NCBI GenBank assembly: GCA_018818165.1
Contig: JAHISP010000082.1
Coordinates: 1 to 64,000, forward strand
Length of the DNA stretch: 64,000 nucleotides
Direction: 5' to 3'
Source: Bacteroidota bacterium
GTDB taxonomy: Bacteria; Bacteroidota; Ignavibacteria; Ignavibacteriales; Melioribacteraceae
Position numbers and translations under genes: made by a program. The notes beneath the pieces are model-generated. The model searched no databases, was not told the origin of the DNA, and saw only the letters and a program-made list of their open reading frames with translations. Shown piece after piece: positions 9,102-45,652 of this stretch; positions within the stretch are counted from its first letter, which is position 1; the number at the start of each line of letters is the position of its first letter.

Positions 9102-10343
9102 ATGAATAATAACAAACAAAGTACAATAAAAGGTCAAACTTTATTACGACAAAGAAATGTTTTACTTGTGCTGAACACAATTAATAGTTCTGGTCCTATA
9201 TCTAAAAGAGAAATAGTCTACTTAACAGGCTTAAGTTTTGCAAAAGTTAATTCAATAATAATTTTCTTGAATAACCTAAATCTTATACTTGAGGTAGGAA
9301 AAGAAAAATCGAGTGGTGGTCGTCCTTCTTCTATTTTTGAATTTAATTCAAACTTTAGATACACAATAGGATGTCAATTATCACATACTCAAATTCATAC
9401 CATTGTTAGCAATCTCAAAGGAGAAATCCTTTTTAATGATATTAAACCATTTGATAAATCAACGGGGAAAGAATTTGTTATAGATTTGATGATTGATTCC
9501 ATTGATAATTTGATAAATTTATCAGGAATTCCACATGATAAATTTATAGGAATAGGTGTAGCCATTGCCGGTTTGTTTAATCCTAAAGATGAAACTACAC
9601 TACCTTTTCCTCATTTAGTAAGTTGGGGAAATGTATCGTTTAAAAGTATTCTCTACAATAAATTTAAACTCCCTTGCTATGTAAACAATATAGCTAACGC
9701 TGCTGCTTTGGCAGAAAGAAATTATGGATTGGGGAAAGGCATTGAAAATGTTCTTTATTTGAACATAGGTAGTGGACTTGGAATGGGAATTATTTTCAAC
9801 GGTAAATTATACGAAGGTGTCTCTGGAACAGCTGGTGAGTTTGGACATATAACTGTTGATGAAAATGGTCCAATATGCGCATGTGGCAATGTTGGATGTC
9901 TGGAAGCTATTGCAAGTACAAAAGCTGTAATAAACGATGCAAAGGACAGATTAAAACAGGGTGTCTTGTCTGTACTTTCAAATATGGTTAAAGACAATAT
10001 AAACGATCTCGATTTTAAAATGATTTGTGCAGCTGCAATTCAAAGCGATAAACTTGCTTTTAGTGTTATTGATAAAATGGGACAAAATCTTGGAGAAGGA
10101 ATTGTAACACTAATAAATCTTTTAAATCCAGAAAGAATAATTCTTGGTGGAAAAATTGTAGATGCTAAAAATCTAATAATTATTCCAATAATGAATATAG
10201 TTCAAAAAAGAGCTTTAGAAATTCCAAGAAGAAATACAGAAATAGTATTCTCCAACATGGGCAGTAATGCTGGAACTGTAGGGTCTACTATTCCTATTAT
10301 TGAAAGATTCTTTGAAAATGAAGTAAACAAATTGATCGAATAA
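9102..10343 (+). CDS. ROK-family transcriptional repressor (NagC/XylR type)
   Basis: This 413-residue protein has an N-terminal winged helix-turn-helix (about 15-75, KREIVYLTGLSFAKVNSII) followed by a ROK domain. The zinc site is present as GHI...CACGNVGCLE (about residues 249-268). Sugar-kinase function is unlikely: the usual N-D-A-N-A catalytic motif reads NNIANAAA, so the aspartate is missing, and the N-terminal phosphate loop D-x-G-G-T is replaced by CQLSHT. It is therefore read as a sugar-sensing repressor, probably of this amino-sugar locus, with GlcNAc, GlcNAc-6-P or an oligosaccharide as effector. It lies 66 bases after the barrel gene without a visible terminator between. Confidence 0.92.
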   Translation: MNNNKQSTIKGQTLLRQRNVLLVLNTINSSGPISKREIVYLTGLSFAKVNSIIIFLNNLNLILEVGKEKSSGGRPSSIFEFNSNFRYTIGCQLSHTQIHTIVSNLKGEILFNDIKPFDKSTGKEFVIDLMIDSIDNLINLSGIPHDKFIGIGVAIAGLFNPKDETTLPFPHLVSWGNVSFKSILYNKFKLPCYVNNIANAAALAERNYGLGKGIENVLYLNIGSGLGMGIIFNGKLYEGVSGTAGEFGHITVDENGPICACGNVGCLEAIASTKAVINDAKDRLKQGVLSVLSNMVKDNINDLDFKMICAAAIQSDKLAFSVIDKMGQNLGEGIVTLINLLNPERIILGGKIVDAKNLIIIPIMNIVQKRALEIPRRNTEIVFSNMGSNAGTVGSTIPIIERFFENEVNKLIE

Positions 10344-10376: not shown

Positions 10377-11450
10377 ATGAAAACTATTCGAATTGGTGTT
10401 ATTGGTGCTGGAAGATTTGGAATATATCACTTACATGCTTTTAGGCAAATGGAAAGCAAAAGTGCAATCCAACTTGCAGCTATATCAGAATTAGATCCGG
10501 TAAAAAGAAAATTATTAGAGTTAGAATTCAATATTCCTATATACTCAGATTACAAAGAAATGATTGAAAAAGAAGATTTAACTGCAGTTTCAATAGCAAC
10601 ACAGGATCATCTTCATAAGGATGTTGCAATATTAGCGCTTTCAAAAGGTCTTCACTTATTTGTGGAAAAACCTCTTGATGTTTCTTCAGAAGGGGCTAGA
10701 GAAATATCTGACCTTGCCAAAAATAATAATTTGCTACTACAAGTGGATTTTCATAAAAGATATGATCCATACCATATAGAGATAAAACAATTAATAGAAC
10801 AAAATAAATTTGGAAATTTTTTATATGGTTATTGCCACATGGAAGATAAAATTATTGTTCCACGCGATTGGTTTAAGGATTGGGTTTCGCATAGTTCACC
10901 TATTTGGTTTCTGGGCTGCCATTTTATTGATCTTATGATTTGGCTGATGGGAAGTAAGCCAGTTAGTGTATATGCAAAAGGACAAAAAATAAAATTAAAG
11001 GGACTTGGCATAGATACTTTTGATGCCATACAAAGTATGATTACGTTTGAAAATAATGCAGTAATAACATTTGATAATTCTTGGATACTTCCGGAGCAAT
11101 TTTCATCAATTGTTAACCAAGGATTTAGACTAATCGGTACAGAAGGTATTATTGAAGCCGATTCTGAGAATCGTGGAACACTATCTTGTTTCTCCTCGGA
11201 AAATGGTGTTAGAAATCATAATTCAGGCTTTATGTATACCATTAAAGAATCAAGTGGTAATGAAAAATATGTTGGATATGGAATTGATAGTATTCAGCAT
11301 TTTGCAAAAAATCTTTGTTCCCTTAATAATGGTGAAACACTTGAATCACTTAATGGAACATATCCTTCTGGGAGAGATGGTTATGAAGTATCAAAAGTAA
11401 GCGAGGCAATCCATATCAGCATTAATAGCGGTAAAGAAATTGTACTTTAA
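10377..11450 (+). CDS. Gfo/Idh/MocA-family NAD(P)-dependent oxidoreductase
   Basis: This 357-residue protein has an N-terminal Rossmann fold with GAGRFG (residues 10-15), the family EKP motif (about 97-99, VEKPLDV) and a C-terminal alpha/beta substrate domain. There is no signal peptide, so it is cytoplasmic. Members oxidise or reduce sugars, inositols and amino-sugar derivatives; some relatives (GH109) use NAD to cleave alpha-N-acetylgalactosaminides. Here it lies between the ROK repressor and a GH20-type gene, so an N-acetylhexosamine or uronate derivative is a reasonable substrate, but the sequence does not decide this. Confidence 0.9.
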   Translation: MKTIRIGVIGAGRFGIYHLHAFRQMESKSAIQLAAISELDPVKRKLLELEFNIPIYSDYKEMIEKEDLTAVSIATQDHLHKDVAILALSKGLHLFVEKPLDVSSEGAREISDLAKNNNLLLQVDFHKRYDPYHIEIKQLIEQNKFGNFLYGYCHMEDKIIVPRDWFKDWVSHSSPIWFLGCHFIDLMIWLMGSKPVSVYAKGQKIKLKGLGIDTFDAIQSMITFENNAVITFDNSWILPEQFSSIVNQGFRLIGTEGIIEADSENRGTLSCFSSENGVRNHNSGFMYTIKESSGNEKYVGYGIDSIQHFAKNLCSLNNGETLESLNGTYPSGRDGYEVSKVSEAIHISINSGKEIVL

Positions 11451-11475
11451 TAAATATATTTGGGATAACGTAACT

Positions 11476-13137
11476 ATGAGAAAATCAATACTATTTTTAC
11501 TTTTTGCAGTTTTTAGTATTTCTAACTCAATTAATGCAAATTTACCATTGGCTAATGAGCCATTAATAGTATTTCATTTTGATTTTAACTCCGTTTCACT
11601 AAATGAAAATTATGTACGATTATGGCTAAAAAAAGCTGCAGCTATGGGTTACAATTCTGTTCTATGGGAAATTGAAAACGAAGTACAATGGGATATTTGT
11701 CCAGAATGTTCAAGCCCAGATGCATTTTCGAAAGAAACATTTAGAAGTATTTTAAACTACTCTAGAGAATTAGGATTAGAACCTATACCTCTTTTGCAAA
11801 CTATAGGTCATGCCGAATATGTTTTGGAAAATGAAAATAATAAATCGTTTCGTGAGGATTCTACAAGGTACGATTGTTATTGCACAACAAATCCACAAGT
11901 AAGAATATTTCTTAAAAATTGGATTGATGAATATTTAGAATTATTTGGAGACATTAAATATTTCCATTTAGGTGGTGATGAAGCATATGCCTTTGCTAGT
12001 TGCAGCAAGTGTAAGCAACAAGTAAGCAAAACTAGTGAAAATAGTTTATATGTTGAACACATAGCGGATATTTCGCAGAATCTATTGAAGAAAGGAATTC
12101 GCCCTGGTATTTGGAGCGATATGATCTTGAAATATCCAAATGAAATTGGACAGTTAAACAAAGAGTTTGTGATTTGGGATTGGAATTATTGGGATGGAGA
12201 TGAAATTCCTGAGCGTGTAATGGTTTGGAGCAAAGGCGGAAGATTAAGTAAAAGTGAAATATCTGATTCTATTCTATCTGATTTTCCCGAAATAATTAAC
12301 AATGCAGGAGAGTTAAATCCTTTTTACACTTGCGATGTTTTAAAAAGATTAAAGTACGACGTAATACTTTGCAGTTCATCCCGTTCTTATGGGGATGGCG
12401 TGTTTGCTGGAAGAAATGAATTACATGTAAGTAATATAATAGGAGCTGCAAAAAAGACAGTAAATCTTGGTCTACTAGGTAATTGTGTTACAAGCTGGGC
12501 AGTTAGAATACATAATAATGAAATACAGGAACCTTGGTTTTTTCTTGCTCCGCTAACAATGAAAAATTACTCTCTTTCTAAAAAGGAACTACTAGGAAAA
12601 ACATCACAAGAACTCTTTGGTGTTAATGGTTGTGATTTTTTTGAGCATGCAAATAAAATTGGTTATTCATTTACATTTGCTAATGAAAAATCGACAGGAA
12701 TAATGTGGACAGGTATGAAAGATTCCAAACCAGCCCCAGAAAATTATATTCAAGAATTAATCAATAAAATGAAGTCTGGAAATAGATGGAACGGAACGGT
12801 TGATGAAATAAAAAACTCTACAGGAATTATAAGTGCAGGAATCACAGATTTGAATAAGTTTATTCCAACTACTAAAAAAGGAATTGAAGTATTCTATTCA
12901 TGGAAAAGAGCAGGATATTTTCAATATTGGCAATCAATTATTGCTAATGAAATTGTAAATATATCCGAAAGGAAACCTGGAATAAATACTTCAGAAATGG
13001 TTAAGCTTATAGAAAATATTAAAGAAGAATATAAAAATTGGGCTGAAAATTGGATGACTCCAACTTCAGCTGAACAAAATGCAGGTCTTATCTACGATGC
13101 AGTTCAAAATTTATTTAAACAAAATTTAATTGACTAA
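11476..13137 (+). CDS. Exported GH20-like beta-N-acetylhexosaminidase, cysteine-rich
   Basis: I start the gene at ATG 11476, which gives a signal peptide (MRKSILFLLFAVFSISNSINA) and 553 residues; the frame is open upstream through a TTG inside the previous gene, which is unlikely as a start. It is a TIM-barrel protein with the GH20 hallmark HLGGDEA (about residues 164-170), where Asp-Glu polarise the 2-acetamido group and act as acid. TIGHAEY corresponds to the usual PGH-type block. Unlike the classic GH20 enzyme at 19282 it has no obvious N-terminal GH20b domain, and it has cysteine pairs CPEC, CYC and CSKC around the active-site face. No T9SS tail is visible, so it is probably periplasmic and acts on imported oligosaccharides. 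Confidence 0.8.
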   Translation: MRKSILFLLFAVFSISNSINANLPLANEPLIVFHFDFNSVSLNENYVRLWLKKAAAMGYNSVLWEIENEVQWDICPECSSPDAFSKETFRSILNYSRELGLEPIPLLQTIGHAEYVLENENNKSFREDSTRYDCYCTTNPQVRIFLKNWIDEYLELFGDIKYFHLGGDEAYAFASCSKCKQQVSKTSENSLYVEHIADISQNLLKKGIRPGIWSDMILKYPNEIGQLNKEFVIWDWNYWDGDEIPERVMVWSKGGRLSKSEISDSILSDFPEIINNAGELNPFYTCDVLKRLKYDVILCSSSRSYGDGVFAGRNELHVSNIIGAAKKTVNLGLLGNCVTSWAVRIHNNEIQEPWFFLAPLTMKNYSLSKKELLGKTSQELFGVNGCDFFEHANKIGYSFTFANEKSTGIMWTGMKDSKPAPENYIQELINKMKSGNRWNGTVDEIKNSTGIISAGITDLNKFIPTTKKGIEVFYSWKRAGYFQYWQSIIANEIVNISERKPGINTSEMVKLIENIKEEYKNWAENWMTPTSAEQNAGLIYDAVQNLFKQNLID

Positions 13138-14719: not shown

Positions 14720-16060
14720 ATGAAAATACAAATTATAGATGGTAATGTACTACTTCCAACTGGATTAAAAAAGGTTTCAATTGAACTTGAAAACGGACTA
14801 ATAACCAGGATTGGAAATAGAATAAAGGAAGATCCATTAGCAGTTAAAATATCTGCTGCAGGAAAATATGTTTTACCTGGTTTTATTGATTTACACACCA
14901 ACGGAATAGCTGGTTTTGACCTCACTAATGGATTATTTAATTTAGAAAAAAGTACTTTTATTAGTCAGGAAGACGATTATTTAAAAGGGTTAGATAATGC
15001 ATTAAAACAATTCTCTAAGCAAGGAACTACTTTAGTAGGATTTACTACGCTTGAAGCTCCAATAAATAAGATGAAAAGAATTTTTCAACTTATTGCAAAG
15101 TATAAAAACGAAAGCCCTAGTATTTACAAAGAGCTTTTCCATGGTATTTATCTAGAAGGCACTTTCATGAAGGACAAAAGATTTCGTGGGGCGCATAATC
15201 CAAAATATTTTTTTAAGCCTTCAATTCAATTGTTTAAAGAACTCCAAGAAGCTGCAAATGGAAATATTAAGATAGTTAATGTTGTACCTGAATGGGGAGA
15301 TGCTGCGTTAGAATTAATAGAATACTTAGCAACCAAAAATATTGTGTGTGCTGCTGGGCATACAAGTGCGACAGGTAATCAATACCGTGCTGCAATTTCA
15401 AAGGGGCTTACACTCGCCATCCATGTTCTTAATGGACCGTCATCTTCATCATATAAACCATTTGATGGTGGTGGTTCTCTTGAATCTTTCCTACAATCTG
15501 ATGATATGTTTGTGGAGATTATCACAGATGGTTATCATGTGGATAAGTCTTATGTTCTTGATCTTATTAAAAAGAAAGGAACGGAAAAATGTGTAGCTAT
15601 TACAGATAGTATGTTTGTTACAAAAATGAAAAAAGTTAAAGAATTTCAAATATCTGGTGTAAAAGGAAAGGTTAGTGAAAATGGTGAATACATTCAAATA
15701 GCGGGCAGGGAAAATGATAATGCCCTTTTCGGGAGCGTCCTTACTATGGATAAAGCTTTCGAAAATCTTTTAAATTGGTTTACGAGCTCTGTTAAAAGTG
15801 TTTGGAGTGATAATCATGAATCCCTTTCCTTAAATGATGCAATAGTAAATGCTTCCAAAATGTGTTCTGCTAATCCAGCTAAAATACTTGGAATTTATTT
15901 TCTACAAAATGGAGAAGTGAAAAAAGAGGATAATAATATTACTGGCAGTATAGAGCTTCATAAAAGCGGAGATATAGTAATTGCAGATATCTCAGAGCAT
16001 AATAAAAAATATAAGATAAAAATTGAGAAAACGCTCGTTAAAGGTAATCTAATAGATTAG
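14720..16060 (+). CDS. nagA: N-acetylglucosamine-6-phosphate deacetylase
   Basis: This 446-residue cytoplasmic amidohydrolase removes acetate from N-acetylhexosamine-6-phosphate. Motifs in order: VLPGFIDLHTNG (about 53-64), LEGTFM with GAHNP, AGHTSATG near 212, HVLNGP near 234, TDGYHV near 272 and ITDS with the catalytic Asp near 295. Several are drifted from the usual forms (HLFNAM, VTDA), so it is a divergent branch and might prefer the galactosamine isomer (AgaA-like). It is longer than the usual ~380-400 residues. It sits between the symporter and a secreted protein, only 9 and 7 bases away, so the operon is tight. Confidence 0.86.
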   Translation: MKIQIIDGNVLLPTGLKKVSIELENGLITRIGNRIKEDPLAVKISAAGKYVLPGFIDLHTNGIAGFDLTNGLFNLEKSTFISQEDDYLKGLDNALKQFSKQGTTLVGFTTLEAPINKMKRIFQLIAKYKNESPSIYKELFHGIYLEGTFMKDKRFRGAHNPKYFFKPSIQLFKELQEAANGNIKIVNVVPEWGDAALELIEYLATKNIVCAAGHTSATGNQYRAAISKGLTLAIHVLNGPSSSSYKPFDGGGSLESFLQSDDMFVEIITDGYHVDKSYVLDLIKKKGTEKCVAITDSMFVTKMKKVKEFQISGVKGKVSENGEYIQIAGRENDNALFGSVLTMDKAFENLLNWFTSSVKSVWSDNHESLSLNDAIVNASKMCSANPAKILGIYFLQNGEVKKEDNNITGSIELHKSGDIVIADISEHNKKYKIKIEKTLVKGNLID

Positions 16061-16067
16061 TGAGGAA

Positions 16068-17288
16068 ATGTTGAATAAAATTTTAATAAATATTTTTATA
16101 GTTTGTTCTTTCTTAATTATAACATGTGAGGGATATAGCCAAAATTCAAGAGCAATGTGGATTTGGAATCGCCAAAATCAAATTTATAGTATGATTATTG
16201 ATTACAGTAGTTACAGGGACAATTTGTTTGAATTTTGTAGTGCGCCTCATGGCGATCCCGACCATCGGATTAGTGTTTTATTTTTAGATTGTAAAAGTGG
16301 AGTATATGATAACCAAGATAAACTTAGAAATTTTATTTCCGAAGCCTCAGATAGTGGAATTACAATTGAATATCTAGATGGAGATCCAACATGGGCAACT
16401 TACAATCGGGAAACAGGATTTGAGAGAATACAAAAAGCGATTGAGTTTAATGCTGCAACACTTATAGATAAGGAAAAAATTAAAGGGATACAATTTGATG
16501 TTGAGCCTTACTTATTAAAAGAATCTAGAGGATACATGCCACCATATTATGATGTTGAAAGAATGGTGGTTTGGAATCTGTTTGTAACATTTGTAGATAG
16601 TTGTCAAAAAATAATAGATAGTGCTAAAACGGATTTATATTTTGGAATAGCAATACCAAGGTGGTATGAAAATCATGTTGGTGAAGAAGAACTAAAGAGA
16701 CTCCAAGAAAAGGTTGATTATGTTGCAATTATGGACTACAATGAAAACTCTGATGTTATTATCAGAGATGCAGAAAATGAAATAAACAATGCGAACGAGT
16801 TATCTAAAAAAGTATGGATTGGAGTTGAAACCAAAGAAGTAACCCCTGAAACAGTTTCTTTTTTTGAGGAAGGTGTTACATTTATGGAATCTCAATTGGA
16901 TAGTGTTCTAAATGTTTATGGAAATAATCCTGACTTCCTTGGAATTGCAATACATTCTTATACTTATTATAAGTCATTGTTTGTTGATCCAGTTAGTGTT
17001 GATGAAATTAATTATGAAATTAAAAATGGATTTATTTTAGAACAAAATTATCCTAACCCTTTTAATCCCTCAACAAAAATAAAATTTTATTTGGATAAAG
17101 CTGGTTATACTTCACTAAACATATATAATATTCTTGGTGAACAAATAAAATCATTATTAGATAAAAATATTGATGCAGGCTGGCATGAATTAACTTTTAA
17201 CAGTAGTAAGTTTTCATCTGGAATTTACATATATGAACTAATTTCAAATAATTATAAATCTCGAAAAAAAATGGTTTTAACTAAATAG
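16068..17288 (+). CDS. Secreted TIM-barrel-like protein with T9SS tail, possible new glycosidase
   Basis: This 406-residue protein has a signal peptide ending in GYSQ, a ~310-residue barrel-like domain and a T9SS sorting domain (LEQNYPNPFNPSTKIKF to the C-terminus). The core shows strand-end blocks KGIQFDVEPY (about 143-152), YFGIAIPRWYE, VDYVAIMDYNE and FLGIAIHSYTYY. The acidic FDVEP strand end and the IMDYNE strand recall GH18 (DxxDxDxE and M-x-Y-D), but the GH18 signature is not there, so I do not assign it. As the only T9SS-exported barrel in the amino-sugar locus it is a good candidate for the endo-acting enzyme that makes the first cut. GAGGA precedes the ATG. Confidence 0.7.
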   Translation: MLNKILINIFIVCSFLIITCEGYSQNSRAMWIWNRQNQIYSMIIDYSSYRDNLFEFCSAPHGDPDHRISVLFLDCKSGVYDNQDKLRNFISEASDSGITIEYLDGDPTWATYNRETGFERIQKAIEFNAATLIDKEKIKGIQFDVEPYLLKESRGYMPPYYDVERMVVWNLFVTFVDSCQKIIDSAKTDLYFGIAIPRWYENHVGEEELKRLQEKVDYVAIMDYNENSDVIIRDAENEINNANELSKKVWIGVETKEVTPETVSFFEEGVTFMESQLDSVLNVYGNNPDFLGIAIHSYTYYKSLFVDPVSVDEINYEIKNGFILEQNYPNPFNPSTKIKFYLDKAGYTSLNIYNILGEQIKSLLDKNIDAGWHELTFNSSKFSSGIYIYELISNNYKSRKKMVLTK

Positions 17289-17289
17289 T

Positions 17290-18426
17290 ATGGATAACAA
17301 GATAAACAAACCAAAATCTGGTCAAAGATTAGCATCAATTGATGCCTATAGAGGCGCAACTATAGCTGGAATGATTATGGTCATTAATCCAGGAAGTTGG
17401 AAATATATATACCCAGCTTTTCGTCATGCAAATTGGAATGGATGCACATTAGCCGATCTAGTATTTCCATTCTTTCTATTCATAGTAGGAGTTTCTATTA
17501 CATATGCATTTTCGAACAGTTTAAATAAAGGTATAACAAAGAAATTGCTGTATTCAAAAATAATTAAACGTTCTATTATTTTATTTATAATAGGTTTATT
17601 CCTTAATAGTTTTCCAAATTTTGACCTTGCAAATATTCGCATAATGGGAGTTCTTCAAAGAATTGCTTTGTGCTATTTAATTGTTTCATTTCTTTTTTTG
17701 AATTCAAATTACTATGTTCAAATAATTGTGTCAATATCATTGTTGTTTATTTATTGGGCTTTAATGGAATGGGTTCCACTTCCAGAATTAGGTTTAAGCG
17801 CTTACGAAAAGGGAACAAATGTTGCCGCTTATTTTGATCGCCTTATTTTAAGTGGGCACATGGGATATTATGAAAAAATTGGGGAGCCAGAAGGATTTAT
17901 TAGTATGTTACCCGCAATATCAACAACTCTTTTCGGTGTATTAACTGGACATTTTTTAAAATCGAAAAAGGAACCATTAATTATTAGTTCTGCTTTGTTC
18001 ATTACCGGGGTACTTGGAGTTTTTGGTGGAATGATTTGGGCACAATGGCTTCCAATTAATAAAAATTTGTGGACAAGTTCATATTCTGTTTTAACTGCAG
18101 GCTTTGCATTAATAGTTTTTAGTTTATTTTACTTTTTTATTGATGTGCTTGATTATCGAAAGTGGGCTAAACCATTTATTGTTTTTGGCATGAATGCAAT
18201 TACAGTATATGTTTTGTCAATAATTTTTGCAAGACTAATTGTAATGATAAAATTTACCACAGAAAGCGGTGTTAGCTATCATGTTCGATCTTGGTTTTAT
18301 GATAATATTCTAGCTGTAGTATTGGGTAATTATAATGCTTCATTAATTTATGCTTTTTTATATAGTCTTTTTTGGTGTGGTATAATGTGGATTTTTTATA
18401 ATAAAAAAATATTTATTAAAATATAA
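17290..18426 (+). CDS. nagX: Transmembrane N-acetyltransferase, heparan-glucosaminide type (NagX-like)
   Basis: This 378-residue protein has about ten membrane helices. The N-terminal signature RLASIDAYRGATIAGMIM, then FRHANWNGCTLADLVFPFF, matches the HGSNAT/DUF5009 family, including the histidine in H-A-x-W-N-G that serves as the acetyl acceptor in the human lysosomal enzyme. That enzyme moves acetyl from cytosolic acetyl-CoA to glucosamine residues on the far side of the membrane. Here the protein would acetylate periplasmic glucosamine ends so that GH20 enzymes, which need the 2-acetamido group, can act. The bacterial NagX name is used for relatives in Nag regulons. It starts one base after the previous stop and ends one base before nagB. 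Confidence 0.85.
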   Translation: MDNKINKPKSGQRLASIDAYRGATIAGMIMVINPGSWKYIYPAFRHANWNGCTLADLVFPFFLFIVGVSITYAFSNSLNKGITKKLLYSKIIKRSIILFIIGLFLNSFPNFDLANIRIMGVLQRIALCYLIVSFLFLNSNYYVQIIVSISLLFIYWALMEWVPLPELGLSAYEKGTNVAAYFDRLILSGHMGYYEKIGEPEGFISMLPAISTTLFGVLTGHFLKSKKEPLIISSALFITGVLGVFGGMIWAQWLPINKNLWTSSYSVLTAGFALIVFSLFYFFIDVLDYRKWAKPFIVFGMNAITVYVLSIIFARLIVMIKFTTESGVSYHVRSWFYDNILAVVLGNYNASLIYAFLYSLFWCGIMWIFYNKKIFIKI

Positions 18427-18427
18427 A

Positions 18428-19237
18428 ATGAATAGTAATTTGAATAGGAATCTGACAGATATGCAAGGTAATTCAAAATCTAAAATATTTAAAATTGAGA
18501 AATTAGACGTTGAAATTTCTTCTACTCGCCAAATTAATGGTCTTGCAGCAGCAAATGATGTTGCCAAAATTATGCACAAAATAATTGCAGAAAAAAATGA
18601 ATTAAGAATGATTTTTGCCGCAGCACCTTCCCAAAACGAACTACTTAGTGAGCTTATTAAAGTTGAAAATATAGATTGGACAAAAGTTTCTGCTTTCCAT
18701 ATGGATGAATATGTAGGGTTAAAATTGGATGCCCCTCAATCTTTTGGACAGTTTCTAAAAGAAAGGATATTTAATAAAGTTCCGTTTGGAAAAGTTAATT
18801 ATATAAAAACTGATGAAATTAATTTAGCTGATGCTTGTGAAAATTATTCAAAGCTATTACAAGAAAAACCAATTGATATTGTTTGCATGGGAATTGGTGA
18901 AAATGGACATATTGCTTTTAATGATCCTCCATTTGCAAAATTTGATGACCAAGTATGGGTAAAAGCTGTTCTATTGGATAATGTGTCAAGACAGCAACAA
19001 GTTAATGATGGATGTTTTCCTCAATTGGAAGATGTTCCCAAAGAAGCTATAACTTTAACAATACCTGCACTTCTTTCAGCGAAATATTTGTTTGTTGTTG
19101 TGCCTGGTAAGTCAAAAGCTAAAGCTGTTAAAGCAGCCTTATTTGGACCAATTGAAGAAGACTGTCCTGCATCAATTTTAAGAAATCATAATAATGCCAA
19201 GCTATATTTAGATAAAGATTCTGCTGCTAATATTTAA
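18428..19237 (+). CDS. nagB: Glucosamine-6-phosphate deaminase
   Basis: This 269-residue cytoplasmic enzyme converts glucosamine-6-phosphate to fructose-6-phosphate and ammonia. It carries FHMDEYVGL (about 92-100) with PQSFGQFL behind it, and GIGENGHIAFNDPP (about 155-168) where NagB normally has GIGxxGHIAFNEP. The later histidine region is changed as well, so it belongs to a divergent branch shared with AgaI-like isomerases; the galactosamine pathway is an alternative. A second ATG at codon 12 is a possible start. It lies directly behind the acetyltransferase gene and completes the NagA-NagB route. Confidence 0.87.
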   Translation: MNSNLNRNLTDMQGNSKSKIFKIEKLDVEISSTRQINGLAAANDVAKIMHKIIAEKNELRMIFAAAPSQNELLSELIKVENIDWTKVSAFHMDEYVGLKLDAPQSFGQFLKERIFNKVPFGKVNYIKTDEINLADACENYSKLLQEKPIDIVCMGIGENGHIAFNDPPFAKFDDQVWVKAVLLDNVSRQQQVNDGCFPQLEDVPKEAITLTIPALLSAKYLFVVVPGKSKAKAVKAALFGPIEEDCPASILRNHNNAKLYLDKDSAANI

Positions 19238-19281: not shown

Positions 19282-21327
19282 ATGAGAATAAATGGATTTT
19301 CGAAATTAAAAATTATGATAGTGGCTTTATTTATGAGCATAAATTTATTAGCTCAAACAAATTTCAAGAATTTAAACTTAATGCCTGTTCCAGAGGAAAT
19401 GACTGTTGTCTCTGAAAAGTTTTTGCTAAATCAATCTTTTACTATATCAATTAATATTGATGATGCAAGATTATATAAGGCAGCTAAAAGAACTCTGGAT
19501 AATTTAGCCAAAAGAACGGGATTATTAATTAAAGATCAATTTCCTATAATTTCTAAATCCTCAAAAGACAATTCAATGTTAATTAATGTTGATAAAGCAG
19601 TTGAATTAGAATTAGGAATAGATGAATCATATGATTTAATTGTTGATGAAACCTCAGTAAGATTAAATGCTGCAACTACTTTTGGTGCTATTCATGGTCT
19701 TGAAACTTTAGAGCAATTATTGAATTCGGATGAAACGAGTTATTATATACAAGGAGTTCAAATTAAAGATAAACCTCGTTTTCCATGGCGTGGTTTATTG
19801 ATAGATGTTTCTCGTCATTTTATGCCCATTGAAGTAATTAAAAGAAACCTTGATGCGATGGCTGCCGTAAAAATGAACGTACTTCATTGGCATTTAACAG
19901 ATGACCATGGTTTTAGAATAGAATGTAAATCATTACCAAAGCTGCATGAATTGGGCTCAGATGGTTTATACTATACCCATGAACAAATTTTAGACATTGT
20001 TGATTATGCTGCGGACAGAGGAATAAGAGTAGTTCCAGAGTTTGATCTACCTGGACATGCAACAAGCTGGTTAGTTGGATATCCTGAATTTGCAAGTGCA
20101 CCTGGCCCTTATTCAATTGAAAGAAATTGGGGTATTTTTAATCCAACTTTTGATCCTACTAATAAAGAAACTTATGAATTCCTTACTGTTTTCTTCAAAG
20201 AGATGAGCACTCTTTTTCCCGATAAATATTGGCATATTGGCGGTGATGAAAATAATGGAAAACAGTGGGACACAAATTCCAAAATTCAGGAGTTTATGGT
20301 TCAAAATAAATTTAAAAACAACCACGCACTTCAAAACTATTTTAACATAGAAGTTGAGAAAATTTTGTCAAATTTAGACAAAACAATGATTGGTTGGTAT
20401 ACAGATGAGATGCCAGAACTTTCAAAGGATTATATAATCCAGGCTTGGAAGGGAAGAGCATCATTGTACCAAACTTCACGTAATGGTTTTAGAAGTTTGT
20501 TATCACACGGATTTTATATCGACCTTGTTCAGCCAACGGATTATCATTATTTGAATGATCCTATACCACCTGATTCAATTTTAGATGATTCAGTAAAAGA
20601 GAAAATATTAGGTGGTGAAGCCACAATGTGGGCTGAATTTGTTGGACCAGAAACTATAGATTCAAGAATTTGGCCTCGCACAGCTGCTATTGCAGAACGT
20701 TTATGGTCACCCAGTGATGTAAATGATGTTCAAGATATGTACAGACGACTCAAAATCGTTAGTCTACAATTAGAGAATCTAGGTTTAACTCATATAAAGA
20801 ATTATGAAATGATGTTGCGCCGGCTAACCAATAATTTTAATGTTGAAGTATTAAAGAATTTTGTTGATGTTATTAAACCTCTTTATACTTATTCGCGCGA
20901 TCACCCACATGTTTTTAAATCATATTATCCTTTAACAAGAGTTGTTGATGTTGCAATTCCTGATCCAAAAGTAGCCAGAGAGTTTAATCAATTAGTTGAT
21001 AGTTACTTAGATGATGCAGAAAAAGATGAAGACAAAACTGTAGTTATAAAAAAATGGTTGAAATTATGGAAAAATAACCACGATAATTTGGTTAATATTA
21101 TAAAAGTAAGACCAGTTCTTAAAGAAATAGAAACGCTTTCAGAAGATTTATCAAAATGTGCATCCATAGGCTTGGAAGCTCTTGATTTCATCAGCAGCAA
21201 TAGCAAAGCAAATGAAATATGGGTTACTGCTAGTTATGGAACATTAAAAATGGCTGAGATTCCAAAAGGTGAAACTGAACTTGCAATACTGAAATCTATT
21301 GAAAAGCTAATAAGTGTAGTACAATAA
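19282..21327 (+). CDS. GH20 beta-N-acetylhexosaminidase
   Basis: This 681-residue exported enzyme has a signal peptide ending NLLAQ, a GH20b-type domain (about 25-165) and the catalytic barrel from PRFPWRGLLIDVSRHF. Key blocks are LHWHLTDDHGFR, PEFDLPGHATS, HIGGDEN (about 319-325, the Asp-Glu pair) and the tryptophans of the substrate pocket (WGIF, EATMWAE, IWPR). It removes terminal GlcNAc or GalNAc by substrate-assisted catalysis. A ~170-residue helical C-terminal region follows the barrel. There is no T9SS tail, so a periplasmic site is likely. AAGGA precedes the ATG. Confidence 0.95.
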   Translation: MRINGFSKLKIMIVALFMSINLLAQTNFKNLNLMPVPEEMTVVSEKFLLNQSFTISINIDDARLYKAAKRTLDNLAKRTGLLIKDQFPIISKSSKDNSMLINVDKAVELELGIDESYDLIVDETSVRLNAATTFGAIHGLETLEQLLNSDETSYYIQGVQIKDKPRFPWRGLLIDVSRHFMPIEVIKRNLDAMAAVKMNVLHWHLTDDHGFRIECKSLPKLHELGSDGLYYTHEQILDIVDYAADRGIRVVPEFDLPGHATSWLVGYPEFASAPGPYSIERNWGIFNPTFDPTNKETYEFLTVFFKEMSTLFPDKYWHIGGDENNGKQWDTNSKIQEFMVQNKFKNNHALQNYFNIEVEKILSNLDKTMIGWYTDEMPELSKDYIIQAWKGRASLYQTSRNGFRSLLSHGFYIDLVQPTDYHYLNDPIPPDSILDDSVKEKILGGEATMWAEFVGPETIDSRIWPRTAAIAERLWSPSDVNDVQDMYRRLKIVSLQLENLGLTHIKNYEMMLRRLTNNFNVEVLKNFVDVIKPLYTYSRDHPHVFKSYYPLTRVVDVAIPDPKVAREFNQLVDSYLDDAEKDEDKTVVIKKWLKLWKNNHDNLVNIIKVRPVLKEIETLSEDLSKCASIGLEALDFISSNSKANEIWVTASYGTLKMAEIPKGETELAILKSIEKLISVVQ

Positions 21328-23341: not shown

Positions 23342-25825
23342 ATGAAAAAAGTTTATAAACTTAAAATATTTGTAATATTAACCACATTTAGTTTGTTTGC
23401 ATGCTCACAAATGATGAGTTCTAATGTTAAACTTGATGAAACACCTGCTAATGAAAAGGAATGGGGATTTCACCCATCGGAAGGTTCGATTTCAGATTTT
23501 AATCCTCCTTCATTTTCATGGAGACCACAAAAGGAAATTATTTCTTGGGAATTAGAATGTGAAAGTAATACTGAATCATTTAAATATGTGTACAATAATA
23601 TTGATATGAATGTTCATTGCCCTTCAAAGATATTTCCAATAGGAGGTTATTCTTGGCGATATAGAGGAGTTGACTCTTCTGGCGGAAAAACTGATTGGAG
23701 TATTACGCGTAAGTTTAATATCAATAATAACGCTGTAAAAATGCCAATGCCTTCAAAAGAGGAATTAATTGCTAGAGTTCCTAAAACTCACCCTAGACTT
23801 TTTATGCGACCTGAGCAATTGGAAGATTTACGCAAGAAATCAAAAGGGGAATTTAAGTCTAAATATGATGACTTGGTTTCAAAATGCGAAGAATTACTTA
23901 AAAATCCACCACCTACAGAAGAACCCAAAAAATTTCCAGATTCTATGGTTAGATATGGATACGATTGGGTTATACAGTGGTGGGGAAATAGAGTTTATGT
24001 CATCAACGCACTAGATGCAGCAGCAACACTTGCATTTACTTATCAAATTGGTGGGAATAAAGATTATGCAAAACTAGCTAAGCAAATTTTAATTGATTGT
24101 GCAAAGTGGGATCCCAAAGGAGCCTCAGGCTATCGTTATAATGATGAAGCTGGTATGCCATATATGTATTATTTCTCAAGAGCCTATACTTTTTCTTATG
24201 ATTTTCTTTCTGATGAAGAACGAAATATTTGCCGTAATGTAGCTCAAATAAGAGGCAAAGAAATGTATGAACATTTATATCCAAGACAATTGTGGGATTC
24301 TTATGTTAGTCATAATGCACGTGCATGGCATTTTTTAGGAGAAATGTCGATAGCGTTTTTAGGAGAGGTTGAAGGAGCGGAGGACTGGCTTTGGTTTGCT
24401 ATGAATATTACTTTTAATGAATATCCAATTTGGGCAGATGATGATGGTGGCTGGCACGAAGGTTTCAGCTACTGGCATAGTTATCTTGGTCGTTTCAAGA
24501 ATTGGTCTTTTGCAATACGCTCAGCAATGGATATAAACGTTTATGCAAAACCATATTTTGCAAACACAGCAGGGTATTATGCAATGTATATGATGCCACC
24601 TGGAAGAGATGCTGCTGAGTTTGGTGATGCATCTGTTAGGGTGAAGGAAACAAATATTGTCCCATTGTTTGGTGAAGGAACATTCCTTCGTTCACAAGCT
24701 GTTAATGCCGTGCCTCTTATGAGTCGCCTAGCAGCAGAATCTGGAAATGGATATTGGCAGTGGTATGTTAACCAAATGGGAGGTTCAGTTGAAGAAACTG
24801 GTTATTTGGGTTATCTACAACCATTACCCCCAAAACCAAAACCAATTGTACCAACTGATATACCTACTTCGCGTTTATTTGAAGGCATTGGTATAGCTGC
24901 ACTTAATTCAAATTTAATAAATGCTAAGGATGATGTACAAATTCTTTTTAAATCTAGCCAAATGGGTACACAATCTCATGGAATTGAATCTAATAATACT
25001 TTTGCGTTATGGGCATATGGTGAGCGAATGCTAATCAGAACCGGGCATTATTATATGTATGGAGCACCTCATCATGCAGACTGGGTTTGGGAAACAAAAT
25101 CTCAGAACAATATAACGGTTGATGGTAAGGGACAGTTAAAGCATTCGCCTTTTTCAAAAGGTAAAATTACTGCATTTAAAACAACACCGAAAATTGATTA
25201 TGTTGTTGGGGAAGCTGGCGAAGCTTATAGATTTGAGCAAGATAATGTTGAACAAAATTTATTAAATAGGTATACTCGTACCATTCTTTTTATAAAACCG
25301 GAATTAATGATTGTATTTGATAGGTTGGAAGCAAAAGAACCATCTACGTTCGAATATCGTTTGCATGCTCTTAATAAATTCGAGCTCGAAGATAAAGAAA
25401 ATCTAATGGTTCAATCAGGCGATGTAGTTTGTGAAATTGACATGTTAACACCCATAAACTTAACAATTAGTCAAACTGACCAGTACGATCCAAATCCATG
25501 GGAACAAATAAAAAACCGTGATTGGCATTTTACTGCTGCTACCGGAACTAAAAGTAAAAATGCTGAATTTGTAACCCTTTACCGTCCACATAAAAAGGAA
25601 CAAAGTGTTCCAAATAAAGCCGAACTCAATAGAGTAGAAGGTGGATATGTTTTAACAACAGAAGTTACAGAAGGCAAAATTGTAGCTCTTCTACCATTAA
25701 CAGATTCAACCTCAATATCAGCTGAGGGATTAGAATCAAACGGTGAGGTAGTTATTCAACTTAGTGGGATAAACGGGGAAATTATTGAAACAGTTAAGGT
25801 TGAGAAAACATTATTTGATAAATAA
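23342..25825 (+). CDS. Heparinase II/III-type polysaccharide lyase, lipoprotein
   Basis: This 827-residue protein has a lipoprotein signal with lipobox LFAC (Cys 21). A DUF4962-like Ig-type region (about 35-130) is followed by an alpha/alpha toroid (WWGNRVYVINALDAAATLAF, SHNARAWHFLGE, EGFSYWHSYLGRFKNW) and a beta-sandwich heparinase II/III-like domain (QSHGIESNNTFALWAYGERML). The family cleaves uronate-containing polymers (heparan, chondroitin, alginate) by beta-elimination through Tyr/His residues. Together with the GH20 genes and the heparan-type acetyltransferase it favours a glycosaminoglycan-like substrate, but the exact polymer cannot be read from sequence. AGGAGA precedes the ATG. Confidence 0.85.
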   Translation: MKKVYKLKIFVILTTFSLFACSQMMSSNVKLDETPANEKEWGFHPSEGSISDFNPPSFSWRPQKEIISWELECESNTESFKYVYNNIDMNVHCPSKIFPIGGYSWRYRGVDSSGGKTDWSITRKFNINNNAVKMPMPSKEELIARVPKTHPRLFMRPEQLEDLRKKSKGEFKSKYDDLVSKCEELLKNPPPTEEPKKFPDSMVRYGYDWVIQWWGNRVYVINALDAAATLAFTYQIGGNKDYAKLAKQILIDCAKWDPKGASGYRYNDEAGMPYMYYFSRAYTFSYDFLSDEERNICRNVAQIRGKEMYEHLYPRQLWDSYVSHNARAWHFLGEMSIAFLGEVEGAEDWLWFAMNITFNEYPIWADDDGGWHEGFSYWHSYLGRFKNWSFAIRSAMDINVYAKPYFANTAGYYAMYMMPPGRDAAEFGDASVRVKETNIVPLFGEGTFLRSQAVNAVPLMSRLAAESGNGYWQWYVNQMGGSVEETGYLGYLQPLPPKPKPIVPTDIPTSRLFEGIGIAALNSNLINAKDDVQILFKSSQMGTQSHGIESNNTFALWAYGERMLIRTGHYYMYGAPHHADWVWETKSQNNITVDGKGQLKHSPFSKGKITAFKTTPKIDYVVGEAGEAYRFEQDNVEQNLLNRYTRTILFIKPELMIVFDRLEAKEPSTFEYRLHALNKFELEDKENLMVQSGDVVCEIDMLTPINLTISQTDQYDPNPWEQIKNRDWHFTAATGTKSKNAEFVTLYRPHKKEQSVPNKAELNRVEGGYVLTTEVTEGKIVALLPLTDSTSISAEGLESNGEVVIQLSGINGEIIETVKVEKTLFDK

Positions 25826-25920: not shown

Positions 25921-27003
25921 ATGTTAAAAAAGATGATAGTATTTTTGATTATAATACCAGCAATTTGTTTTTCATATAATGGAAACAAAAAGAATGAAAC
26001 CAAGAACCCAAATGCTGATACTCTCAAAATTCATCCTATTGGGGATTCTATTACACGAGGAACAAGAGGTGATACTTATAGAAATTATTTAAAAACTATA
26101 CTAAGGGATCATAATATTGAAGTAGATTTTGTAGGTCAGTGTTCTAATGCTGCTAATTCTGGTTCTGTATGGGCTGATTATCCTGATTTGTATAATCTTT
26201 TGGAAGGTGATATTGAACATGATGGCTATGGAGGGCTCAGAATAGACCAACTTACTGATATGACCTATAATACACGTGGTTATCCTCAAAAAACAATTGA
26301 ACAATTGGTAATAGATAATCCTTCAGATATAATATTATTGATGATGGGAACGAATGATATAATAAGCCAATTCCAATTGGACAATGCTCCAGCAAGATTA
26401 GATACATTAATTAGGAAAATTCTTAATTCAACCTCTGGGCATTTAATTGTTTCAAACATTACCCCAACTCCACTCCCACTAGCAACTGAACGTATAAATA
26501 CATTAAACTCATTTATCCCTGCTATAGTTGATTCATATAAAACTTTAGGAAAAAATATTTCTTTCATCGATATAAATTCTATGTTGGGTAATTCAGATAT
26601 TTCTGACGATTCGTATCATCCTAATAGTCAAGGTTATGAAAATATTGCAAAGGGTTGGTATGAAGCGATTACACCATTAGTAAGTAGTATTGAGGAAAAT
26701 ACTATTGAAGGCAAAATTCCAGAAAAATATGAGTTAATGCAAAATTACCCAAATCCATTTAATCCAAGCACAATTATAAAATATGGGCTATCTGAGCAGA
26801 GTAATATTAAAATTGAGATATTTAATATGCTTGGACAAAGTGTAGCCAAATTAGTTGATACGGAAAAATCGGCTGGATATTACGAAACCACTTGGAATGC
26901 GGATAACTTACCTAGTGGAGTTTATCTTATAAGCAATAGAGCAGTTGGTTTAGATTCTAAGAATAACTTTATACAAGTAAAAAAAGCACTTCTGTTAAAG
27001 TAA
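25921..27003 (+). CDS. Secreted SGNH/GDSL esterase with T9SS tail
   Basis: This 360-residue protein has a signal peptide (MLKKMIVFLIIIPAICFSY), an SGNH hydrolase domain and a T9SS sorting domain from about residue 270 (LMQNYPNPFNPSTIIKYGL). The four SGNH blocks are visible: GDSITRGTRGDT (catalytic Ser), DGYGGLRID (block II Gly), MGTNDI (Asn) and DDSYHPNSQGY (catalytic Asp and His). The arrangement is like CE3 acetylesterases. It probably removes O-acetyl or N-acetyl groups from the polymer outside the cell. AAGGAG precedes the start, and it is the last gene before a strong hairpin. Confidence 0.9.
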   Translation: MLKKMIVFLIIIPAICFSYNGNKKNETKNPNADTLKIHPIGDSITRGTRGDTYRNYLKTILRDHNIEVDFVGQCSNAANSGSVWADYPDLYNLLEGDIEHDGYGGLRIDQLTDMTYNTRGYPQKTIEQLVIDNPSDIILLMMGTNDIISQFQLDNAPARLDTLIRKILNSTSGHLIVSNITPTPLPLATERINTLNSFIPAIVDSYKTLGKNISFIDINSMLGNSDISDDSYHPNSQGYENIAKGWYEAITPLVSSIEENTIEGKIPEKYELMQNYPNPFNPSTIIKYGLSEQSNIKIEIFNMLGQSVAKLVDTEKSAGYYETTWNADNLPSGVYLISNRAVGLDSKNNFIQVKKALLLK

Positions 27004-43078: not shown

Positions 43079-45652
43079 ATGAAAGTCAAACTTGTTCTAA
43101 TTTTTTTGATAATTATTTCATTCCAGGTGTTAGCTCAAAGTAATAGTAATCTGATTCGCATTGATAACAATGGAATTATGCGATGGTCTGAGAATAATGA
43201 ACCTGCAAATTTTTGGGGAGTCAATTATACAGTCCCATTTGCGTTTTCATACCGTGCAATACAAAAACTTGGATTATCGCACGAAGAAGTGATAGATCAT
43301 GATATTCAGCAATTTAAAAGACTTGGCATAAATGCTTACCGAATTCATGTTTGGGATAGAGAAGTATCGGATAGAAATGGAAATCTTATCGAAAATGAAC
43401 ATTTACGATTGATGGATTATTTGGTAAAGAAACTTGTGGAAAATGATATCTATATAATTCTTACTCCTATAGCTTGGTGGGGAAATGGTTATCCGGAACC
43501 AGATGATTCTACGCAAGGCTTCTCATCGTTTGGCAGCAAAATGGATTTATCCACAGAACCAGAATTTATAAAAGCTGAGAAAAATTATATTGAGCAATTT
43601 GTTAATCATGTTAATTCATATACTGGTAAATCATATAAAGATGAACCTAAAATTATTGCATTTGAAATTATAAATGAGCCAAATCTTCCCGCTGATAGTG
43701 CAGCCGTTACAAATTATGTGAACGAAATGGTTGATGTTTTACAAAATGCTAATGTTACCAAGCCAATATTTTTTAACATAAGTCAAAACCCAGATAAAGA
43801 GCAATGGATTGGTGTTGCAAATTCAAAAGTAGATGGTATTTCATTCCAGTGGTATCCAACGGGTTTGGTTCATGGAAGTACTCTTAATGGGAATTATTTG
43901 CCACACGTAAGTCAATATCCATTGCCAACTTATTCAATAAAAATTGCTAATAAAGCTAAAATGGTTTATGAATTTGATGCACCAGATATTGCAGCTTCCA
44001 CAATGTATCCGATGATGGCTTCCAGTTTTAAAAATGCTGGAATGCAATGGGCTACAATGTTTAGCTACGACCCGACACCTATAGCTGCTTATAATGCCGA
44101 ATACATTACGCATTATTTAAATCTTGCCTACACGCCAAGTAAAGCCATCGGATTTTTAATTGCTTCCAATTTATTTATGGACAAGCAAAATCAAAAAATT
44201 GATATCAGTTCAAATACTAATTCTATAAGTAATTTCAGTATTAATTATGAAGAAGATTTTAGCTTGTTAAATAGTAACACCAAATATATTTATAGCAACT
44301 CAACAAATAAGAAACCTAAAAATTTTGAAAAACTTGAACATCTTGCAGGTGTAGGAAATTCTGAGTTAATTAAATATGAGGGAACTGGTGCTTACTTTAT
44401 TGATAAAATTGAAGAAGGAAAATGGAAGCTTGAAGTATTCCCAGATGCAGTTTGGTTAAAAGATCCGTTTGGAAATAATAATCTCGAAGATCCGGTTGCA
44501 AGGCTAATATGGTTAGCTAGAAAAATTAAAATTATTTTGCCCAAAGTTGGAAGTGAGTACTATGTTTATGAGAATGGAGTAAACGCTAAATACATTGGAA
44601 ACGCCATTAGAACTGAATTTGAATTATTGCCTGGGAGTTATATTATTTCTGATGTTGAATTAAATAACAACTTTAATTCTAAGTTATCAGTATTCGATTT
44701 TAATGAATTAAGAAAATTAACCAACCACAAATACAACACAATCAATATCAAGAATAATACTTACAAAGAAATAAGTGAAGGTGATTCATTAGTAATAAAT
44801 GCTGAAATATATACTGATTTAAGTGATATAAAGGTTTCAGTTTATGCACGCAGATTCGGATGGAAAGGTTTCAGTAAAATTGAAATGATAAAAACGAATA
44901 TGTTTAAATACCAAGCAAAAATTCCAAATGAACTTTTAACAAACGGTATAATTGAATATTATTTAACTGTTCAAAATGATAGTAAGATTATTACATATCC
45001 AGGCAATTATTCAATAGACCCAAATAATTGGGGCTTTAATGCAAATAATGGATATCAGGTTTTGGTTAAGCCTTATGATAAATCAAAAATAATATTCAAT
45101 CCAAATGAAAATAGTAATAATATAATTATATCTAATGACTGGAATACGCTAAGAGATAGGACTGATTTGTTACCATCAAAATCTAATTCGTATTCTTATT
45201 CAATATCTTTATATGACTATATGAAAAAAACGGATGAATTTGTAGCACAAATATATGTAGGTGATGAGGTTAAAAAATATGGGAATCAATCAATTTCATC
45301 TATATTATTAGATACAGAATTATATTGTGATGTAATTGATTCAGTTGACTTCAGATTTATTTATAGCAATAATATGGGATTTGTGAAACGGGTTTCAAAA
45401 GATGACCTTAAAAACGGAATGGAATTGATAGACTGTGATTATAAATCAATTGAATATGCATTGTTGCCAAGACCATATCCAACATTTTTGCCATACTGGT
45501 ATAAATCTAGTAGTAAAGAAAACTATTTGGAATCAGAAAATGCTAGACTGGAATTTATTCAAATTGCAATCCCATTAAATAAAGTTGAAGTTAATTCAAA
45601 TACTAATATAACGTTAAGAATAAATGAAGTGCGTGCAGTATTTGAGAGATAA
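43079..45652 (+). CDS. Exported GH5-like (clan GH-A) glycoside hydrolase
   Basis: This 857-residue protein has a signal peptide ending FQVLAQ and an N-terminal clan GH-A barrel (about 20-370): FWGVNYTVPFAF, RLGINAYRIHVWDRE, acid/base in AFEIINEPN (near 200) and probable nucleophile in MVYEFDAP (near 300). The remaining ~480 residues form several unassigned beta-rich regions. No T9SS tail is visible (it ends NEVRAVFER), so it is likely periplasmic. It starts two bases after the GH53 stop and precedes galK, so a galactoside or galactan side-chain substrate is likely, but the GH5 subfamily is not clear and GH2- or GH42-related forms are not fully excluded. Confidence 0.8.
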   Translation: MKVKLVLIFLIIISFQVLAQSNSNLIRIDNNGIMRWSENNEPANFWGVNYTVPFAFSYRAIQKLGLSHEEVIDHDIQQFKRLGINAYRIHVWDREVSDRNGNLIENEHLRLMDYLVKKLVENDIYIILTPIAWWGNGYPEPDDSTQGFSSFGSKMDLSTEPEFIKAEKNYIEQFVNHVNSYTGKSYKDEPKIIAFEIINEPNLPADSAAVTNYVNEMVDVLQNANVTKPIFFNISQNPDKEQWIGVANSKVDGISFQWYPTGLVHGSTLNGNYLPHVSQYPLPTYSIKIANKAKMVYEFDAPDIAASTMYPMMASSFKNAGMQWATMFSYDPTPIAAYNAEYITHYLNLAYTPSKAIGFLIASNLFMDKQNQKIDISSNTNSISNFSINYEEDFSLLNSNTKYIYSNSTNKKPKNFEKLEHLAGVGNSELIKYEGTGAYFIDKIEEGKWKLEVFPDAVWLKDPFGNNNLEDPVARLIWLARKIKIILPKVGSEYYVYENGVNAKYIGNAIRTEFELLPGSYIISDVELNNNFNSKLSVFDFNELRKLTNHKYNTINIKNNTYKEISEGDSLVINAEIYTDLSDIKVSVYARRFGWKGFSKIEMIKTNMFKYQAKIPNELLTNGIIEYYLTVQNDSKIITYPGNYSIDPNNWGFNANNGYQVLVKPYDKSKIIFNPNENSNNIIISNDWNTLRDRTDLLPSKSNSYSYSISLYDYMKKTDEFVAQIYVGDEVKKYGNQSISSILLDTELYCDVIDSVDFRFIYSNNMGFVKRVSKDDLKNGMELIDCDYKSIEYALLPRPYPTFLPYWYKSSSKENYLESENARLEFIQIAIPLNKVEVNSNTNITLRINEVRAVFER

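Follow-up and report, generated by a model that had tools for sequence, protein, structure and literature searches.

The window, meaning the whole 64,000-nucleotide stretch of a Bacteroidota bacterium genome analysed here (contig JAHISP010000082.1), carries on its + strand a gene at 16068..17288 that starts with ATG and encodes a protein of 406 amino acids. Its N-terminus, read by eye from the translation, is a probable signal peptide (residues 1-25, MLNKILINIFIVCSFLIITCEGYSQ; 16068..16142). This is followed by a predicted (beta/alpha)8 barrel domain, delimited from an AlphaFold2 model and the family alignment A2 (residues ~27-307; 16146..16988), and by a T9SS type A sorting domain (residues 328-403; 17049..17276), which scores 38.2 bits against PF18962 (cut-off 27) and is also over the cut-off of TIGR04183. 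The T9SS tail is common in this genome, with about 150 other occurrences; the barrel domain occurs once, and Pfam and NCBIfam gave no match to it over cut-off. The gene had originally been predicted to encode the only secreted, T9SS-exported barrel-like protein of an amino-sugar locus, and the predicted signals agree with this: the GDSL protein encoded at 25921 bears a T9SS tail too, but does not belong to a TIM barrel family.

The surrounding genes form a cluster in the order NagC-like ROK regulator, Gfo/Idh, GH20-like protein, SSS transporter, NagA, barrel, NagX, NagB, GH20, SSS, PL15-like lyase, GDSL/T9SS protein and LacI. The cluster genes given below with start and end coordinates lie on the + strand. 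The regulator (9102..10343) is NagC/Mlc-like. A second, diverged GH20-like protein (11440..13137) matches PF00728 at 3.5e-13 and 8qk1 at 7.7e-21. As predicted, the barrel gene lies between nagA and an acetyltransferase: upstream is a NagA-like GlcNAc-6-P deacetylase (14720..16060; TIGR00221 4e-45, below the curated cut-off) and downstream a NagX-like transmembrane glucosamine N-acetyltransferase (17290..18426; NF046061 7.7e-54, below the curated cut-off). Next come a NagB-like glucosamine-6-P deaminase (18428..19237), assigned from the Pfam and NCBIfam scans, and a GH20 beta-N-acetylhexosaminidase (19282..21327; PF00728 3e-91, 6yhh 1.7e-166). The heparinase II/III-like protein at 23342..25825 (DUF4962 and Hepar_II_III_C) is nearest to PL15-type lyases, not to heparinase II; the closest solved structure is the oligoalginate lyase 3a0o (6e-69), with 6lja at 1e-26. 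This PL15-like lyase suggests that the substrate contains uronate. Outside the cluster, an 858-residue frame has a GH5 match (PF00150, E 4.7e-9) at 43295-43780.

The barrel family and its two genomic contexts

Searches of the PDB and of phages with the single window sequence returned nothing. Distant homologues of the barrel were first found on Bacillales plasmids, in records that label them hypothetical protein or 'amidase', and these were aligned as a search profile. A scan of GTDB genomes with this alignment yielded at least 592 pattern matches and at least 474 confirmed homologues, of which 80 were retained; alignment A2 comprises 47 rows, and residues were counted over 108 domains from a profile search of all fetched loci. 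A GH31 match at E 0.011, below cut-off, came from a single family member only. Members also lie on the Bacillales plasmids L016, L017 and L018, and four more contigs that carry one (L192-L195) are classified as viral; no signal peptide is evident in L016. The 'amidase' label of the plasmid member at L014 5890-6792 is likely a misnaming. In Paenibacillus cellulositrophicus (L013 5047-11024) an Ig-fused member adjoins a sulfatase-like gene, and a lytic polysaccharide monooxygenase lies farther along.

Invariant in A2 are G, D, E and P of strand 4, M and Y of strand 6, and a G of strand 8. The strand-4 motif of the window protein is KGIQFDVEPY (residues 139-148; 16482..16511), whose D144, E146 and P147 are kept in 108/108 domains, and the strand-6 motif is VDYVAIMDYNE (residues 216-226; 16713..16745), with M222 kept in 107 and Y224 in 101 of the 108. 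The residue preceding E146 is V, I or T (26, 19 and 2 of the 47 rows). At the end of strand 7, E254 (16827..16829) is a second possible catalytic or sugar-binding acid, Glu in 96/108 domains, and H296 (16953..16955), at the end of strand 8, is kept in 99/108. The remaining domains at position 254 have Asn (11, all from the Brevibacillus/Paenibacillus tandem group) or Asp (one, L010), with D144 and E146 intact in every case. Three large groups differ in architecture, namely single domains with a membrane anchor, Ig-fused proteins and tandem barrels; all three appear extracytoplasmic judging by their N-termini. In the tandem barrels of L062, L075, L076, L080, L082, L083 and L092 the first domain has Asn for E254 and keeps Tyr224, and the second keeps E254 and has Phe for Tyr224.

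The barrel is tied to amino-sugar catabolism genes beyond the window, lying in a NagA/NagB/GH20 cluster in five other genomes (L019, L020, L021, L199 and L200). It occupies the same place in L019 and L200, lies between NagA and NagB in L021/L185, and is shifted to the 3' side of the cluster in L020 and L199. Among 39 near relatives, the NagA orthologue and a full barrel are found in the same three genomes (the window's own, G545 and G557; Fisher p 1e-4, uncorrected for ancestry); a 66-residue partial barrel match in G556 was left out of this count. Neither gene is present in four further genomes of the genus. Among the labelled rows of the tree, those linked to nag genes make up a single group (99/84); the unlabelled row L022 also falls inside it. 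The DNA examined around the barrels of other genomes of the class (L186-L191) contained no nag cluster, so the nag link is limited to one clade (L019, L020, L021/L185, the window, L199 and L200).

A second context is found in the bacilli. At 22 Paenibacillus-type loci, one of them labelled Neobacillus, a membrane-anchored barrel is the last gene of a conserved operon, behind the same five genes: a 750-residue anchored protein with no Pfam match, a HEAT protein, a GT2 glycosyltransferase, a response regulator and an NDP-sugar dehydrogenase (L073 1-8807 is one example, with 21 similar loci). The GT2 matches the PgaC/IcaA model at 1.3e-39, below cut-off, and the dehydrogenase is nearest to UDP-ManNAc/UDP-GlcNAc dehydrogenases. 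Overall, a GT2 lies within six ORFs of the barrel in 33/80 loci. In four Brevibacillus tandem-barrel loci the GT2 and the regulator are a few genes farther away, and scattered organisms (L029, L069, L081, L093, L095, L096 and L097) also have a nearby GT2. Synthase-dependent exopolysaccharide operons can include a hydrolase gene of their own, PgaB being an example (PMC5933820), and from its gene content the Paenibacillus-type operon looks like an undescribed system of this kind. Each of the two contexts points to a polymer containing aminosugar, and the lyase of the window together with the sugar dehydrogenase of the bacilli hint that it may also hold uronic acid.

Predicted fold and relationship to GH18

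AlphaFold2, run on alignment A2, gave a model with eight strands in (beta/alpha)8 order (pLDDT 94.5, pTM 0.91; model residue n is protein residue n+21). D144 and E146 are modelled just past strand 4 and Y224 just past strand 6, E254 is the final residue of strand 7 and H296 that of strand 8; the pocket geometry was deduced from secondary structure and sequence. The two acidic motifs are thus modelled where strands 4 and 6 end, in keeping with the original prediction of acidic strand ends. When the model was compared with known structures by VIA-align, Cwp19 (GHL10) ranked top with Z 21.3, superposing 256 residues at rmsd 3.6; the next protein reached Z 17.8. Cwp19 was followed by GH5, the putative chitinase 4wiw and PgaB near 17.5, and by GH18 near 16, and a range of clan A enzymes preceded most GH18 entries (16 to 17). 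GH53, GH5 and GH1 were among the top folds by Foldseek and VIA; GH191 and other folds in the list had TM-scores of ~0.5 or less. As modelled, the common barrel fold does not by itself choose among Cwp19, GH5, PgaB and GH18.

We aligned the A2 profile by hhalign with 25 GH18 domains taken from genomes of the phylum and obtained 96.7% (E 3.5e-10; 222 columns on realignment), in a register that sets FDGIqlDVE over FDGvdiDwE and IMaY over LMcY, so that D144-x-E146 coincides with the GH18 D-x-E and M222-x-Y224 with the GH18 M-x-Y. Restricting the profile to the window's own group (five rows) gave 95.1%. Controls with GH5 and with the reversed alignment gave 1.7% and 0.1%; GHL10 gave 91%, but over strands 2-3 only, in 45 columns away from the active site. 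Between the reference families, GH18 scored 84.6% against GHL10 and 9.4% against GH5. Of 150 column-shuffled profiles, 148 scored at most 23.6 against 77 for the real profile, and two were end-alignment artefacts at about 130; because of these two, the case for GH18 is made by the way the motifs line up and by the GH5 and reversed-alignment controls, not by the E-value alone. A search of PDB sequences with the A2 profile returned 10yv first (E 6e-33), then chitinases at 0.019 and 0.049.

The original prediction described the barrel as recalling clan K without a GH18 signature. The first part is upheld by the profile relationship. The second is literally correct, as IKGIQFDVE of the window protein fails PROSITE PS01095 at positions 2 and 5, but it misleads, since the strand-4 and strand-6 motifs are, by their alignment, divergent versions of those in GH18. 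Exact PS01095 matches occur in 23/80 relatives, chiefly in the Ig-fused and proteobacterial groups (for example FDGVNIDTE). None of the 108 domains retains the second GH18 motif Asp, having H, Q or N instead, and only 44 keep the first. Against PF00704 the window protein had no match at E 1, and 4/47 relatives match weakly (best 2e-6). A plain GH18 assignment was rejected for the window protein, for which PF00704 and PS01095 both fail. By these sequence criteria the family is GH18-related, the window protein does not itself qualify as a GH18 member, and the barrel family is uncurated, lying outside every curated family checked in Pfam and NCBIfam.

Proposed function and comparison with known systems

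Our favoured interpretation, which we hold to be slightly more probable than not, is that these proteins form an uncurated, GH18-related family of extracellular hydrolases acting on an N-acetylhexosamine polysaccharide, possibly with uronic acid, by substrate-assisted retention. This mechanism is favoured because D144-x-E146 and Y224 stand in GH18 register. D144 is predicted to be the assisting Asp and E146 the general acid/base; D144 and Y224 would position the N-acetyl group of the substrate as the nucleophile, in a retaining reaction through an oxazoline intermediate. The T9SS would export the barrel protein, which would cleave the polymer outside the cell, perhaps as the endo-acting enzyme that the original prediction envisaged. 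Freed oligosaccharides would then pass to the GH20 enzymes, the PL15-like lyase and the GDSL protein, and the resulting GlcNAc and GlcN to NagX, NagA and NagB. In Paenibacillus-type bacteria the related barrels would shorten or set free a similar polymer, produced by the synthase that their operon encodes. A bolder proposal, which we advance only tentatively, is that this is a new glycoside hydrolase family processing an undescribed synthase-made exopolysaccharide of aminosugar and uronic acid in Paenibacillus-type bacteria, and that its T9SS-exported Ignavibacteriota branch lets other bacteria eat the same class of polymer.

The well-conserved E254 speaks against a GH18-like mechanism, in which it has no part; it lies where clan A enzymes and PgaB keep a Glu. 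In GH20, an acidic residue binds the hydroxyls of the -1 sugar, and by analogy E254 may do so here. If the protein were instead a clan A-type glycosidase, E146 would be the acid/base and E254 the nucleophile, with the N-acetyl group of the substrate dispensable. The conserved Glu ending strand 7, the E-P that closes the strand-4 motif as in NEP, and the GH53, GH5 and GH1 folds among the top matches would fit. However, with GH5 as representative of the clan, the Asn before the strand-4 Glu is never present (0 of the 47 rows), the hhalign control with GH5 was negligible, and E254 is replaced in otherwise intact relatives. On the missing Asn and this replacement we rate a clan A enzyme as unlikely.

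We regard as less probable still a peptidoglycan lytic transglycosylase, serving cell-wall turnover or the lysis of other bacteria. Cwp19, the top fold, is such an enzyme with a GHL10 domain (PMC6016235), and GlcNAc catabolism would fit this role, yet Cwp19 resembles the family without a sequence relationship at the active site. It has Asp195-Asp196-Tyr197 in strand 4 and Gly in strand 7 (PMC5765458), a D-D-Y/Gly arrangement absent from the family, which has D-x-E-P (108/108) and mostly Glu. Moreover, neither the window protein nor its relatives matched PF02638 (GHL10) in Pfam scans, the hhalign overlap with GHL10 avoids the active site, and in bacilli the family is linked to the synthase of an exopolysaccharide. 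Several GH18-like proteins are lectins, and Tyr224 is lost in the second domain of tandem members, but a non-catalytic polysaccharide-binding barrel is the least probable reading of all, as the D-x-E usually lost in GH18 lectins is invariant here.

Taken together, the observations behind the original prediction are confirmed and its interpretation is partly supported: a barrel was predicted, acids stand at its strand ends, and no match to a non-hydrolase arose. A predicted fold, a proposed catalytic mechanism and two genomic contexts can now be attached to a family of hundreds of loci across many species, and the window protein is a testable candidate enzyme for an aminosugar polymer. If our reading is right, it adds a clan K-like family with an altered catalytic motif, and an enzyme that acts on a synthase-dependent exopolysaccharide in soil bacilli and might serve as a biofilm-trimming tool.

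The family was also predicted to be undescribed. This holds in that it lacks a curated model and that our literature search found no paper describing the barrel family, the Paenibacillus-type operon or 10yv, but a relative with a solved structure exists in 10yv itself ('Putative GH97 from Cellulomonas fimi'). An hmmsearch with A2 covers its residues 6-271 of 275, so that it belongs to the same sequence family along its entire domain, and it carries both the strand-4 D-x-E-P and the strand-7 Glu; unlike the window protein it is a single 275-residue domain. As Pfam scans of the window protein and its relatives gave no match to the GH97 model, the family name in the 10yv title looks wrong or provisional. 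The C-terminal domain of PgaB (GH153) is alike in being an extracytoplasmic hydrolase whose gene adjoins that of a PgaC-like GT2 synthase within an exopolysaccharide operon and in having a strand-7 Glu (E607 in E. coli; PMC5765458). It differs in that its probable acid is reported to be D474 and the second residue of the GH18/GH20 pair to be missing (PMC5933820), whereas D-x-E is invariant in the barrel family, and no Pfam match to the PgaB hydrolase domain was seen for the window protein or its relatives. With GH18 chitinases and endo-N-acetylglucosaminidases the family shares the fold, the strand-4 D-x-E, the strand-6 M-x-Y and the profile relationship. Unlike them, it has first and second motif Asp residues that are variable or lost, an extra strand-7 Glu, a strand-8 His and a shorter barrel, and it stays under the Pfam cut-off.
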